From: a gamma proteobacterium symbiont of Stewartia floridana
Lineage (GTDB): Bacteria; Pseudomonadota; Gammaproteobacteria; Chromatiales; Chromatiaceae
Length of the DNA stretch: 64,000 bases
Direction: 5' to 3'
NCBI GenBank assembly: GCA_003676145.1
Contig: NAUB01000028.1
Location: 1 to 64,000, forward strand
The notes under the pieces are model-generated. The model saw only the letters and a program-made list of their open reading frames with translations, was not told where the DNA came from and did no database searches. Positions 30,840-34,942 of this stretch are shown piece after piece (position 1 is the stretch's first letter; each line of letters begins with the position of its first letter). The position numbers were made by a program, and so were the translations under genes.

Positions 30840-30898
30840 GGTGCGGCAAGCCGCACCCTACGAACCTAGTTAGCGTGTAGGGTGCGGCTTGCCGCACC
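30840..30898. repeat. REP palindrome pair (BIME-like), left of the RAYT gene
   Basis: Two 18-base palindromes GGTGCGGCAAGCCGCACC (30840-30857) and GGTGCGGCTTGCCGCACC (30881-30898) face each other around a 23-base spacer. The whole 59-bp unit recurs in inverted orientation at 31532-31590 with about one spacer mismatch. It may also end cysS transcription. Confidence 0.88.
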
Positions 30899-30976
30899 GA
30901 TGGCCTGTAATGAAATCACCTAACTTTGCAATGAAGCACCGCAGCACCATTTTCGCAATTGCCAGGGAGGGCAATA

Positions 30977-31528
30977 ATGCCGAATTATCGAAGAGCACTC
31001 ATTCAAGGTGGCAGCTACTTTTTTACAGTCGTAACGCACAAACGCAAGCCTCTGTTTTCTGATGATTCTGCGCGCCTGTTTCTACGAGATGCGATCTCCA
31101 ATGTGCGTATCAATTACCCATTTGAAATCGATGCTCTATGTCTACTTCCAGATCATCTACATACGATCTGGACTCTGCCAGATGGCGATATGAACTATTC
31201 AAAACGTTGGAGGGCTATTAAAGGCAATTTCTCTAGAGGTTACAGAAAACAAACCAGCAGAAAGATAGCGCCAACCATCTCCAGGCAGAATCGAGGGGAG
31301 GTGACCTTCTGGCAGCGATGCTTTTGGGAGCATCTCATTCGAGATGAGAGGGACTATAGGCGCCATTTCGATTACATTCACTTCAATCCGGTTAAGCATG
31401 GATATACAGAATCTGTTTCAGATTGGCCCTGGTCTACATTTCATCGGTATGTTCAAAAAGGTATCTACCCAATAGATTGGGGTGGTGTGGCTGAAGAGAA
31501 GATAGACCTCGAATCTGTGGGTGAGTGA
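30977..31528 (+). CDS. REP-associated tyrosine transposase (RAYT, Y1/IS200-like)
   Basis: 183 residues of the TnpA_REP family. The N-terminus MPNYRRALIQGGSYFFTVVT is typical. LPDHLHTIW near 61-69 holds the HUH metal-binding histidines, and RDYRRHFDYIHFNPVKHGY near 134 contains the catalytic-Tyr helix. RAYTs nick and mobilise REP palindromes as single-stranded DNA. The flanking REP pairs fit exactly. The start at 30977 has a GGGAGG ribosome site; an ATG six codons earlier does not. The frame is intact. Confidence 0.93.
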   Translation: MPNYRRALIQGGSYFFTVVTHKRKPLFSDDSARLFLRDAISNVRINYPFEIDALCLLPDHLHTIWTLPDGDMNYSKRWRAIKGNFSRGYRKQTSRKIAPTISRQNRGEVTFWQRCFWEHLIRDERDYRRHFDYIHFNPVKHGYTESVSDWPWSTFHRYVQKGIYPIDWGGVAEEKIDLESVGE

Positions 31529-31531
31529 TTC

Positions 31532-31590
31532 GGTGCGGCAAGCCGCACCCTACACGCTAGCTAGGTTCGTAGGGTGCGGCTTGCCGCACC
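31532..31590. repeat. REP palindrome pair (BIME-like), right of the RAYT gene
   Basis: Mirror copy of 30840-30898: palindromes at 31532-31549 and 31573-31590, with spacer TACACGCTAGCTAGGTTCG, the reverse complement of the left spacer apart from one base. It starts 4 bp after the RAYT stop and lies 50 bp from the folD stop. Confidence 0.88.
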
Positions 31591-31640: not shown

Positions 31641-32498
31641 CTACTTTGCACTATGCAGCTCGGCGGCCTGCAGGGTGTTCTCAAGCAGCGTGGCAATGGT
31701 CATCGGGCCGACACCGCCAGGTACCGGGGTGATCCAAGAGGCGCGCTCCTTGGCCGCTTCGAAAGCCACATCACCAACCAGTTTACCCTCGTCGGTTCGA
31801 TTGATGCCCACATCGATCACGATCGCCCCCTCTTTTACCCAATCACCGGGCACGAACTCCGGGCGACCCACCGCGGCCACCAGAATATCCGCATTGCGCG
31901 CTTTCTCAGCCAGATCCTTGGTGCGGCTGTGACAGACAGTGATGGTACAGCGGGCTGCCAGCAGTTCCAGTGCCATTGGACGGCCGACGATGTTCGATTG
32001 GCCGATGATGACCGCATCGAGCCCTTCCAGTTTCTGACCGGTGTGCTGCAGCATGGTCATGATGCCGCGCGGGGTGCAGGGACGCAGGATCGGCATCCGC
32101 AGTGCCAGGCGACCGACATTGTAAGGGTGGAAGCCATCCACATCCTTGGTCGGCAGGATGCGTTCAATGACTGATTCCTCGTCGATCTGCTGTGGCAGTG
32201 GAAGCTGTACCAGAATGCCATCGATGTTTTCGTCCTGATTCAGCTGGTCAATCACTTGCAATAGATCGTCCTGAGAAGTATTTTCAGGTAAATCAAAGGA
32301 TTGGGAGTGAAATCCGACCTCGTCGCAGGATTTTCGCTTGTTCCGTACATAGACTTGCGAAGCCGGATTCTCACCCACCAGCACCACGGCCAGGCCGGGT
32401 CGACGCTCTCCGGCCGCGACACGACGCTCAACGCCAGCCTTGATTTCTGCTCTTAATTCAGCAGCAATCGCCTTGCCATCCAAAATCTCTGCACTCAT
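31641..32498 (-). CDS. folD: Bifunctional methylenetetrahydrofolate dehydrogenase/cyclohydrolase
   Basis: 285 residues. Signatures are [13 protein letters not shown] near 50-62 (with the catalytic Lys), VQLPLPQQ near 97-104, the Rossmann segment [16 protein letters not shown] near 163-178, and the C-terminal [19 protein letters not shown] near 260. FolD interconverts methylene-, methenyl- and 10-formyl-tetrahydrofolate using NADP. It diverges from the tRNA operon with 194 bp between. Confidence 0.97.
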
Positions 32499-32692: not shown

Positions 32693-32769
32693 CGGGGTAT
32701 AGCGCAGTCTGGTAGCGCGCCTGCTTTGGGAGCAGGATGTCGGGAGTTCGAATCTCTCTACCCCGACCA
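32693..32769 (+). tRNA. tRNA-Pro(TGG)
   Basis: 77 nt including encoded CCA. The acceptor CGGGGTA pairs with TACCCCG; the anticodon stem CCTGC/GCAGG closes loop TTTGGGA with anticodon TGG at 32727-32729; the T-arm GGGAG/CTCTC is followed by the acceptor strand. First gene of the tRNA operon. Confidence 0.97.
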
Positions 32770-32777
32770 ATTTTTCT

Positions 32778-33079
32778 GCGCCCGTAGCTCATCTGGATAG
32801 AGCATCGGCCTTTAAGTGAGCACAGTGAGTGTGCCAAATAGGAGCCTTTATGGGGAAACAGAACCCATAAAGTGGATCGCACTGTATCGGGGAAACCTTA
32901 ACAGGTAGCGCTGATGGCAATCCCGAGGAAACCCGCCAGGGGATCCGTAGAGACTATACGTGCGACGCCTGAGACGGTGAAGAGATAGTCCAGACCACAA
33001 ACTCCGTTTGGGGGCGTCGAAAGGCGTAGTTGGTAAGCTAAGCCGAGGGTAGCAGGTTCGAATCCTGCCGGGCGTGCCA
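32778..33079 (+). tRNA. tRNA-Arg(TCT) interrupted by a group I intron
   Basis: Exons 32778-32812 and 33038-33079 join into a normal 77-nt tRNA with encoded CCA. The acceptor GCGCCCG pairs with CGGGCGT, the D-stem is GCTC/GAGC, the anticodon stem TCGGC/GCCGA closes loop CTTCTAA, and the T-arm is GCAGG/CCTGC. The anticodon is U34-C35-U36, and the 225-nt intron lies between U34 and C35. Without splicing the gene cannot give a functional tRNA. Standard tRNA searches may miss it or call two fragments. Confidence 0.93.
32813..33037 (+). ncRNA. Group I self-splicing intron in tRNA-Arg(TCT), IC3-like
   Basis: 225 nt, no ORF. The 5' exon ends in U and the intron ends in G, as group I chemistry requires. 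CUU at the 5' site can pair with GAG at 32842-32844 (P1, with a U-G wobble at the cleavage site); the intervening GCACA...TGTGC is a P1 extension. P2 is CCTTTATGGG with CCCATAAAG. The core strings GGGGAAACC, TGGCAATCCCGAG and AAGAGATAGTCC match the P4-P6 and P7 regions of cyanobacterial tRNA-Leu and Azoarcus tRNA-Ile introns as I remember them. P7 is GACTAT (32952-32957) with ATAGTC (32985-32990). Confidence 0.93.
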
Positions 33080-33126: not shown

Positions 33127-33202
33127 GTGGACGTAGCTCAGTTGGTAGAGCTCCGGATTGTGATTCCGGCGGTCGTGGGTTCGAGACCCATCGTCCACCC
33201 CA
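33127..33202 (+). tRNA. tRNA-His(GTG)
   Basis: 76 nt with encoded CCA. The acceptor GTGGACG pairs with CGTCCAC. Base 33126 is the extra G(-1) opposite discriminator C73, the hallmark of tRNA-His. The anticodon loop is TTGTGAT. Confidence 0.97.
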
Positions 33203-33212
33203 TCTTCAGAAC

Positions 33213-33288
33213 GGGCCATTAGCTCAGCTGGTAGAGCAGTGGACTCTTAATCCATTGGTCGAAGGTTCGAATCCTTCATGGCCCACCA
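33213..33288 (+). tRNA. tRNA-Lys(CTT)
   Basis: 76 nt with encoded CCA. The acceptor GGGCCAT pairs with ATGGCCC; the anticodon stem GTGGA/TCCAT closes loop CTCTTAA, so the anticodon is CTT. It is the last gene of the operon. Its 3' end is duplicated downstream at 33445 and partly at 35446. Confidence 0.95.
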
Positions 33289-33296
33289 AAATTTCT

Positions 33297-33329
33297 AAAA
33301 AAACCGAGCCCTAGTGTTCGGTTTTTTTT
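33297..33329 (+). terminator. Intrinsic terminator of the tRNA operon
   Basis: Stem AAACCGA/TCGGTTT with an A-tract before and an eight-T run after, starting 9 bases past tRNA-Lys. Confidence 0.85.
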
Positions 33330-33754
33330 CTACAGGGGAGATTCGAACCTTCGACTTCAAACAAGCCTGGTTCGACAGCGGAGCGGAGCGAGGCTGATCG
33401 TAGGCGTCTTCGCCTACGACCCGCAGGGCGAGGCGCAGCCGAGTAATCCTTCATGGCCCACCAAAATTTCTAGGGTGCTTACCGGGCACATAGGTAAAAC
33501 CTTATTCCGGAGACATCGTTAACACTTTCTCCGGGGCGAAAGGATCAGGAGCCGCTGCCCATCCTGATCAACTCACAGTTGGAACGTTCTGTCGGATATA
33601 AAATAGGGAGCACGTTCAGGCATGCTGGAGAAATTGTTCAAGTCAAAATTGCTGTCTATTACACTTCAAATAACCATGCTCCACCCGGTGCTCGAAATGT
33701 TCACCGGATGAAACATTGCAATCCAATCAAAGACTCTCTGACCTTATTCATCTT
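33330..33754. other. Intergenic region with repeat fragments
   Basis: No supported gene. It holds a strong hairpin (CGTAGGCG/CGCCTACG around 33400-33418), a segment CAAACAAGCCTGGTTCGACA (33358-33377) resembling 35417-35436, and the 28-bp copy of the tRNA-Lys end at 33445-33472. The rest is featureless. Confidence 0.5.
33445..33472 (+). repeat. Duplicated 3' end of tRNA-Lys (att-like direct repeat)
   Basis: Identical over 28 bases to 33270-33297, covering the T-arm end, acceptor strand, CCA and eight or nine bases beyond. A tRNA 3' end repeated directly downstream is the classic mark of integration at a tRNA gene, but only 150 bp lies between the two copies and no integrase is present. Confidence 0.75.
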
Positions 33755-34072: not shown

Positions 34073-34087
34073 ATATTGGGTAGAAAG

Positions 34088-34942
34088 ATGTTTGCAATTG
34101 GTACTGTGGAGCGTGACACCGGCATTAGTCGGGATACCCTGCGAATATGGGAAAGACGCTACGGTTTCCCGACGCCTGGGCGTAACAATAAGGGCGAGCG
34201 CGTCTACAGCGCTGAGCAAATTCAACGCCTGCAACGGATCCGGCGTTTGTTGGATCAGGGATTCCGGCCCGGTAAAGTGGTGCCACTCGAGGATGAGGCC
34301 CTCAACAAGCTTGCAAACACACTGCACGATCTCTTATTGAGTCCAACGGACATGGATCCCACCCATATCCGACTGATCGATTTGGCATCTTCCGGCGATA
34401 TCCCGGCACTTAATGCAGCACTGGAGCAGCTCCTTGCCCAGGAGGGGCTAAGCTCATTCGTGCTCGATACCTTCGCACCTTTGACCAAAGCAGTCGGAGA
34501 GCTCTGGGCTGCTGGGCGTCTGCAAATTTTCGAGGAGCACATACTCACCAGACACCTGGTGCGCTTCCTCGACGTAGCCATGAGCCGCGTCGGACACCCC
34601 CCTGGGAATCCTGAGGTACTGCTGGGTACTCTTCCCGGCGAGCCGCACGCTTTGGGATTGCTGATGGCCGAGGCCCTGCTGATAAACTCAGGCAGGGCCA
34701 CCCTGAATCTGGGGACGGATGTCCCGCTTGATGAGATAGTGACTGCGGCGGAACGGTCGGGGGTATCGACAGTGGCACTCTCTTTCAGTGGGTGCTATAC
34801 CAGGAACACGATCAGAGACGATCTTGAAGAACTGGCAGAACGCCTCCCACGAGCGGTTCGTATCTGGATCGGCGGGGACGGCGTAAGGCGATTGAGGCGG
34901 TTACCACCCTCAGTTGAGATTATGTCGCTGGAGTCGATTTGA
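34088..34942 (+). CDS. MerR family regulator with B12-binding domain (CarH/LitR-like)
   Basis: 284 residues. The MerR winged helix is residues 1-70 (IGTVERDTGISRDTLRIWER). A helical cap carries W-x9-EH (W near 139, EH near 149), and a Rossmann B12 domain has EPHALG near 184, the E-x-H-x2-G cobalamin-ligand motif. This pattern matches AdoCbl-dependent photoreceptor repressors CarH/LitR. The residue after the Trp is Ala; T. thermophilus CarH has His132 there (from memory), which matters for its light response. The ATG at 34088 was preferred to a TTG at 34076. Probably represses its own divergent promoter region in the dark. Confidence 0.85.
   Translation: MFAIGTVERDTGISRDTLRIWERRYGFPTPGRNNKGERVYSAEQIQRLQRIRRLLDQGFRPGKVVPLEDEALNKLANTLHDLLLSPTDMDPTHIRLIDLASSGDIPALNAALEQLLAQEGLSSFVLDTFAPLTKAVGELWAAGRLQIFEEHILTRHLVRFLDVAMSRVGHPPGNPEVLLGTLPGEPHALGLLMAEALLINSGRATLNLGTDVPLDEIVTAAERSGVSTVALSFSGCYTRNTIRDDLEELAERLPRAVRIWIGGDGVRRLRRLPPSVEIMSLESI

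Follow-up and report, generated by a model that had tools for sequence, protein, structure and literature searches.

A putative group I intron, very likely a trimmed member of a mobile lineage, lies within the anticodon of the sole tRNA-Arg(UCU) gene identified in a Thiodiazotropha-type symbiont

Introduction

The DNA analyzed here, which we call the window, is a stretch of 64,000 nucleotides (positions 1 to 64,000 of contig NAUB01000028.1, assembly GCA_003676145.1) from a gammaproteobacterial symbiont of Stewartia floridana. In this window a tRNA-Arg gene is interrupted by 225 nt that lie inside the anticodon. This raises the question of what the insert is, whether the gene can still provide a tRNA, and how the insert came to occupy this position. 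We approached these questions by reading the exons and the tRNA set of the genome, by comparing the insert with its relatives, and by following the state of the same site in other genomes.

Results

The two exons join into a complete tRNA-Arg(UCU)

With introns allowed, ARAGORN reads the locus as a tRNA-Arg gene whose insertion point lies between U34 and C35. The joined exons give a 77-nt tRNA-Arg(TCT) cloverleaf with a UCU anticodon and an encoded CCA. The join is unique since any shift of the exon boundary spoils the CUUCUAA loop. These results confirm a first-pass annotation of the sequence, which had described two exons that join into a 77-nt tRNA-Arg(TCT), a 225-nt insert in the locus at 32778-33079, a 5' exon ending in U and an intron ending in G. 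In a run without introns ARAGORN missed the split gene, and the only tRNAs called in the window were tRNA-Pro, tRNA-His and tRNA-Lys. Together the four genes form a Pro-Arg-His-Lys cluster, which is flanked by folD and a MerR/B12-binding regulator (both by Pfam). The features of this region are as follows.

31641-32498, minus strand: folD (Pfam)
32693..32769, plus strand: tRNA-Pro(TGG), cluster neighbour (ARAGORN without introns)
32778..32812, plus strand: 5' exon of tRNA-Arg(UCU), ending C32 U33 U34 (ARAGORN, introns allowed)
32813..33037, plus strand: predicted group I intron, 225 nt, last base G (ARAGORN, RF00028, covariation)
33038..33079, plus strand: 3' exon of tRNA-Arg(UCU), starting C35 U36, with CCA (ARAGORN, introns allowed)
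33127-33202, plus strand: tRNA-His(GTG), cluster neighbour (ARAGORN without introns)
33213-33288, plus strand: tRNA-Lys(CTT), cluster neighbour (ARAGORN without introns)
34076-34942: MerR/B12-binding regulator (Pfam)

Some repeats were noted in the same part of the window. The 3' end of tRNA-Lys is part of an exact 28-nt repeat (33270-33297 and 33445-33472), and an RtT-like match to RF00391 at 33321-33463, which scores 42.4 bits where the cut-off is 45, overlaps this repeat. An IS200-like Y1 transposase ORF (PF01797) occupies 30959-31528; a 60-nt stretch of locus L126 matches the window on either side of it, at 31530-31589 and, inverted, at 30841-30901. Such an arrangement is as would be expected for a REP-associated transposase.

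AGA decoding appears to depend on splicing

A search of the genome gave 42 matches to the tRNA model, and reading their anticodons gave 42 distinct tRNA sequences. The tRNA-Arg anticodons among them are ACG, CCG and CCT; TCT occurs in the interrupted gene only. AGA accounts for 142 of 16,717 codons and is present in 38 of 43 mechanically chosen ORFs of the window (≥150 aa). Under ordinary decoding rules AGA requires a UCU anticodon, and because UCU was found in the split gene alone the reading of AGA should depend on splicing. The first-pass annotation had reasoned that AGA decoding rests on splicing if this is the sole TCT-reading tRNA, and had named a genome search for a second gene as a check. 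This appears to be the case, as no second tRNA-Arg(TCT) was present among the anticodons read in the 97%-complete assembly. tRNA-Trp is likewise absent among the tRNAs read, for which a gap is the likely cause; contig C11 of the genome ends about 170 bases past tRNA-Thr.

The insert has the anatomy of a group I intron

The Rfam model RF00028 matches positions 32823-33012 with 39.5 bits (E = 5e-8 for 2.3 kb searched; E = 2.4e-8 for the whole genome). The check with the Rfam group I model, which had been proposed at the outset, thus gave a significant match that is nevertheless under the curated cut-off of 50 bits. We regard this shortfall as a sensitivity limit of the model and not as a defining biological feature. 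Among 11 related sources RF00028 finds a match at E 0.001 in only 5, two of these being the same gene, and the best score, 50.2 bits, belongs to a tRNA-Leu intron. The genome contains other RF00028 matches, one on contig C32 (18.5 bits, E 0.0455) and a third with 11 bits (E 8). The single-sequence fold is weakly unusual (z -2.71; 1 of 100 shuffles was as good). The minimum-energy fold, which pairs the splice-site U with an A, was dropped because it ignores the pseudoknotted core.

Comparative pairing provides what we consider stronger evidence for a group I intron than the RF00028 score. Introns were extracted from relatives by the motifs CGGCCTT before the intron and AAGCTAA at its end, a rule that fixes the exon-U and intron-G ends in these relatives. 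The 52 distinct cores were reduced to 51, one being identical to another, and from these 26 tRNA-Arg(UCU) intron cores were hand-picked for variety. For 51 proposed pairs in 26 introns, 98.5% of the 1326 cells hold standard pairs; the corresponding values are 90.1% in shuffles and 34.6-44.7% with the partners slid. Both-sided changes occur in 18 of the 51 pairs, a number which none of 500 shuffles reached. The covariation and the RF00028 match agree with the initial reading of the insert as a group I intron with P1, P2 and core strings. Its predicted elements, all on the plus strand, are the following.

32807..32812, plus strand: exon side of P1, GG-C-CUU, with the inner C bulged and CUU as the core; pairs with 32842-32846 in 26/26 aligned relatives
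32820..32834, plus strand: small hairpin in loop L1 (GCACA/UGUGC), from sequence reading; variable or absent in relatives
32842..32846, plus strand: internal guide sequence GAGCC, forming U.G with the exon end; GAGCC in 25/26 rows, GGGCC in one
32847..32871, plus strand: P2 hairpin; both-sided changes in 7/8 pairs
32877..32882 with 32960-32965, plus strand: 5' and 3' strands of P3; both-sided changes in 3/6 pairs
32887..32926, plus strand: P4 (32887-32891 with 32922-32926) around P5; both-sided changes in 1/5 P4 pairs
32896-32904 with 32911-32917, plus strand: P5; invariant in 26 rows, hence uninformative
32927..32946, plus strand: P6, with a 6-nt stub at 32934-32939; pairs hardly vary; site of the endonuclease ORF in relatives
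32952..32956 with 32986-32990, plus strand: 5' and 3' strands of P7; five standard pairs in 26/26 rows, invariant, hence no covariation signal
32966..32979, plus strand: P8 hairpin; both-sided changes in 2/4 pairs
33002-33013, plus strand: P9; both-sided changes in 1/2 pairs
33015-33026, plus strand: GAAA-capped hairpin beside P9; both-sided changes in 4/4 pairs

The variation in P3 illustrates the pattern: UCGCAC/GUGCGA of the window is replaced by CCGCAC/GUGCGG or by CUGCAC/GUGCAG in other introns. By analogy P7 would be the guanosine-binding helix. The resemblance to tRNA-Leu introns and the GAAA hairpin loop may point to subgroup IC3.

At the 5' splice site the guide precedes P2 in 26/26 rows and the U at the end of the 5' exon is paired with it as U.G in all 26, these rows having been selected for CGGCCTT before the intron. 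CUU/GAG may be the working P1 helix because the two outermost P1 pairs would form at the expense of the anticodon stem. The GAG at 32818-32820, which would leave a 5-nt loop, was rejected as the guide; this stretch is variable or missing in relatives, while the GGAGCC before P2 is kept. P10, between the guide region and the 3' exon, is weak, with its three pairs forming in 26, 23 and 11 of 26 rows.

The intron is kept within the genus and recurs in other Gammaproteobacteria

A query with the intron DNA matched 23 of 56 genomes, namely 20 of 22 in the genus (own genome included), 1 of 13 other members of the family and 2 of 21 outside it. In each of the 20 genus members that matched, the intron lies in tRNA-Arg(TCT) at the same point; the cluster is Pro-Arg-His-Lys in 18 of them and Pro-Arg-His in two. 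The two congeners with no intron match, G008 and G012, show no match to tRNA-Arg(TCT) either. Their best matches (83% and 81%, full length) are taken to be other tRNA-Arg genes, and these genomes were ruled out as intronless congeners on the same ground. Among the stretches found in genomes of named species, the nearest to the window is from Candidatus Thiodiazotropha sp. 'RUGA' (L184), with 96.4% identity over 5.8 kb, and the introns of several surveyed genomes have exact counterparts in named Thiodiazotropha records. On the basis of these identical or nearly identical records we take the window to come from a Thiodiazotropha-type symbiont.

The matches in other families reside in other tRNAs, in tRNA-Leu(TAA) in G035 and in a tRNA read as CAU in G041; both introns have P4, P5 and P7-P9 strings in common with the window intron. 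ARAGORN calls the G041 tRNA Ser(TGA). At 1342-1667 of L055, a tRNA read as CAU and called Ser(TGA) by ARAGORN has its intron between U33 and C34.

An 18-nt pattern from the core found 74 stretches in genomes of named species. At least 46 of the 74 contain a complete tRNA-Arg(UCU) intron by the CGGCCTT/AAGCTAA rule, and the others are cut off, in other tRNAs, unrelated or unrecognised. Holders of the pattern include Sedimenticola, the symbionts of Solemya velesiana and Escarpia, Woeseiaceae, Thioalkalivibrio and Methylophaga. When the class was sampled evenly, the pattern was found with at most one mismatch in 12 of 370 genomes (reversed control, 0): two belong to the genus, eight others have the intron in tRNA-Arg(TCT), one has it in tRNA-Leu, and the last is G425.

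Several individual cases deserve mention. In G425 (L211) the intron is present and the 5' exon of tRNA-Arg is missing, so that the intron loop joins the T arm of tRNA-Pro; elsewhere in that genome the search gave no full tRNA-Arg(TCT)-like match beyond one of 82%. This state reflects either a deletion or a misassembly. G333 has two copies of tRNA-Arg(TCT) (L208, L212), each with a 250-nt intron. Nine Clostridia records (L140, L153, L166, L167, L169, L178, L180, L182 and L183) have the same 18-nt core in a 219-233-nt insert in tRNA-Tyr(GTA), placed after U35 by ARAGORN; three more (L120, L185, L187) are cut off.

Viral contigs (IMG/VR) contain eight stretches with the core pattern, and none of these eight shows a tRNA-Arg(UCU) intron of this lineage. 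Viral loci L219, L221, L222, L224 and L218 comprise four tRNA-Leu(TAA) genes with introns of 203, 254, 689 and 221 nt and one ARAGORN call of tRNA-Asn with 586 nt; the split tRNA-Leu(TAA) of L219 lies within a tRNA array. One viral contig has an ARAGORN call of Arg(tct) with a 194-nt insert, away from its core-pattern stretch. According to the accessible portion of a 2014 paper (PMC3984707), in which UCU does not occur, the phage introns then known were in protein-coding genes.

Empty and filled sites coexist in the family

The spliced tRNA was compared with 96 genomes of the family and the best 30 matches were read; all 30 are uninterrupted tRNA-Arg(TCT) genes. Split tRNA-Arg(TCT) genes occur in at least eight genomes of the family (G000, G009, G016, G031, G077, G107, G117 and G126). 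Three pairs of filled and empty genes, G117/G070, G107/G057 and G077/G120, share one genus code each. An identical 20-base junction is present in 19 of the 30 empty sites and in 42 of 52 distinct filled genes.

P6 of related introns contains an endonuclease ORF in different states

We surveyed P6 in 52 distinct introns from 70 loci. Insertions of at least 400 nt are present in 17 introns, 15 of which have an intact ORF of 136-144 aa. Nine introns have insertions of 110-302 nt and no ORF longer than 63 codons; the remaining 26, with the window intron among them, have 6-77 nt. The window intron has no endonuclease ORF, its longest ATG ORF being 24 codons. The earlier remark that the intron lacks a homing-endonuclease ORF hence stands for the window copy and does not extend to its relatives, many of which have one in P6. 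Within the family, the introns of G117 (663 nt) and G126 (658 nt) both have the ORF in P6; the frame is broken in G107 (621 nt), most of the endonuclease is gone in G077 (386 nt), and the ORF of G031 runs off the contig.

The G031 piece matches PF11645 with 3.7e-33 and two intact enzymes match it with 2e-38 and 5.9e-39. The same piece aligns with PDB 2ost (residues 4-106, E = 2.8e-4), including the motif residues D, Q and K. We take 2ost to be I-Ssp6803I, a PD-(D/E)XK homing endonuclease from the tRNA-fMet intron of a cyanobacterium. The UAG of the conserved intron core serves as stop codon in 15/15 intact ORFs. The median dN/dS of the intact enzymes is 0.13 (29 of 105 pairs, dS <1.5), and the enzymes are judged to be under purifying selection.

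For the full-length state, a tree built from 51 cores implies 11 changes, and 19 of 500 shuffles were as low. The three P6 states require 15 changes compared with 21.8 in shuffles, none of 200 being as low. The endonuclease states are clustered yet mixed on this tree, in which the cores of the genus cluster, 10 of 48 branches are starred, and gain and loss are indistinguishable. For a test of whether the short insertions are remnants, 15 stubs of 44-77 nt out of the 26 short ones were compared with endonuclease-bearing introns; the 6-nt stub of the window is too short for this comparison. Similarity to the endonuclease-bearing introns exceeded that of all 200 shuffles for the 5' flank of 12 of 15 stubs and for the 3' flank of 4 of 15. 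A P6 that was shared before the enzyme arrived would equally explain the 5' match. These comparisons give only partial backing to the view that the stubs are endonuclease remnants.

Discussion

The reading that best accounts for these data is that a group I ribozyme splits the only tRNA-Arg(UCU) gene found in this genome and that the copy in the window is a trimmed member of a mobile lineage; we consider this very likely. That the tRNA-Arg(UCU) gene of the window contains a functional group I intron is, judging by the sequence comparisons, highly probable, and given a functional intron the lineage probably moves, or has moved, by homing. Once the tRNA cluster is transcribed, the intron would fold, and the exon CUU would pair with the guide GAG so that a U.G pair marks the 5' splice site. 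This site would be cut by a guanosine docked in P7; the freed exon end would then attack after the last G of the intron and join U34 to C35. The product would be a tRNA for AGA and AGG. Following the general homing cycle, the PD-(D/E)XK enzyme (PF11645) in P6 of the relatives would spread the intron to tRNA-Arg(UCU) genes that lack it and would degenerate after the site has been occupied. The ancestors of the window copy may formerly have had this enzyme.

It is conceivable that the insert killed the gene, which would then be a tRNA pseudogene with a dead intron, and that another tRNA reads AGA. Another tRNA-Arg(TCT) gene might lie in the missing part of the 97%-complete assembly, in which tRNA-Trp was not found either, and splicing is here deduced from sequence. 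But the joined exons give a well-formed tRNA, the intron core shows covariation among the relatives, intron and exons are kept in 20/20 matching genomes of the genus, and AGA codons are in regular use; this makes a dead gene extremely improbable. The retention in these 20 genomes, together with the position in the sole AGA reader found, could also suit a fixed intron that works as a switch, with a splicing rate set by GTP or Mg2+ limiting the supply of the AGA-reading tRNA. However, the same retention is expected of an intron that is removable only by exact deletion, and the idea rests on no direct evidence; we regard it as very unlikely.

A different history would be descent from an old ancestor with repeated precise loss and little or no homing, the endonuclease having entered some copies later. 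The same site and the same cluster in most of the loci read, as well as the grouping of the genus cores, are in keeping with such a history, and the tree cannot separate loss from gain. Nonetheless it requires very many precise losses, with filled and empty genes sharing single genus codes; only 12 of 370 genomes of the class match the core pattern, and the enzymes seem to be under purifying selection. Descent with loss is therefore unlikely in our opinion.

Our preferred reading remains that of a mobile lineage with a trimmed copy in the window. In its widest version, towards which we lean, one intron lineage with a PF11645 enzyme would long have used the anticodon of tRNA-Arg(UCU) as its homing site throughout the Gammaproteobacteria. 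Present genomes would then show every stage of the cycle, from empty genes through armed and decaying introns to trimmed and fixed ones, and the trimmed intron would have become fixed in the sole AGA-reading tRNA of Thiodiazotropha, a state that is hard to undo. At a single site, in a probably essential gene, members of the lineage have the endonuclease, a decayed form of it or none, and with such a natural series the homing cycle becomes testable in bacteria with short, easily made parts. This series is the most interesting part of the finding.

Group I introns are known from tRNA-Leu(UAA), tRNA-Ile(CAU) and tRNA-Arg(CCU) of other bacteria. The window intron is like other bacterial tRNA introns in being small and located in the anticodon loop; it differs from them in its host tRNA and in its guide and P2 sequences. 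The enzymes of its relatives resemble I-Ssp6803I in that they belong to the PF11645 family and that the G031 piece aligns with 2ost, presumably the structure of that enzyme. In contrast to I-Ssp6803I they are located in tRNA-Arg(UCU) introns and use the UAG of the core as stop codon; the window itself is without the gene. The available text of PMC8450103 describes group I introns in tRNA-fMet and tRNA-Ile2 of bacteria. In the literature covered, with most subscription journals outside its scope so that earlier reports may exist, we found no paper on an intron in Thiodiazotropha and none on a PDDEXK homing endonuclease in a tRNA group I intron. An interrupted tRNA-Arg-TCT is already in print for Candidatus Thiomargarita nelsonii Bud S10 and the orange Guaymas Basin Beggiatoa (PMC4853749). 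As far as the accessible text of that paper goes, these genes, of which the one in Thiomargarita spans 324 bases, are like that of the window in the tRNA, in a putative group I intron and in their sulfur-oxidising gammaproteobacterial hosts; the likeness is one of description, and by that paper's own account it did not determine intron structure and type. To that report the present analysis adds the structure of the intron, its relatives and the states of its endonuclease.
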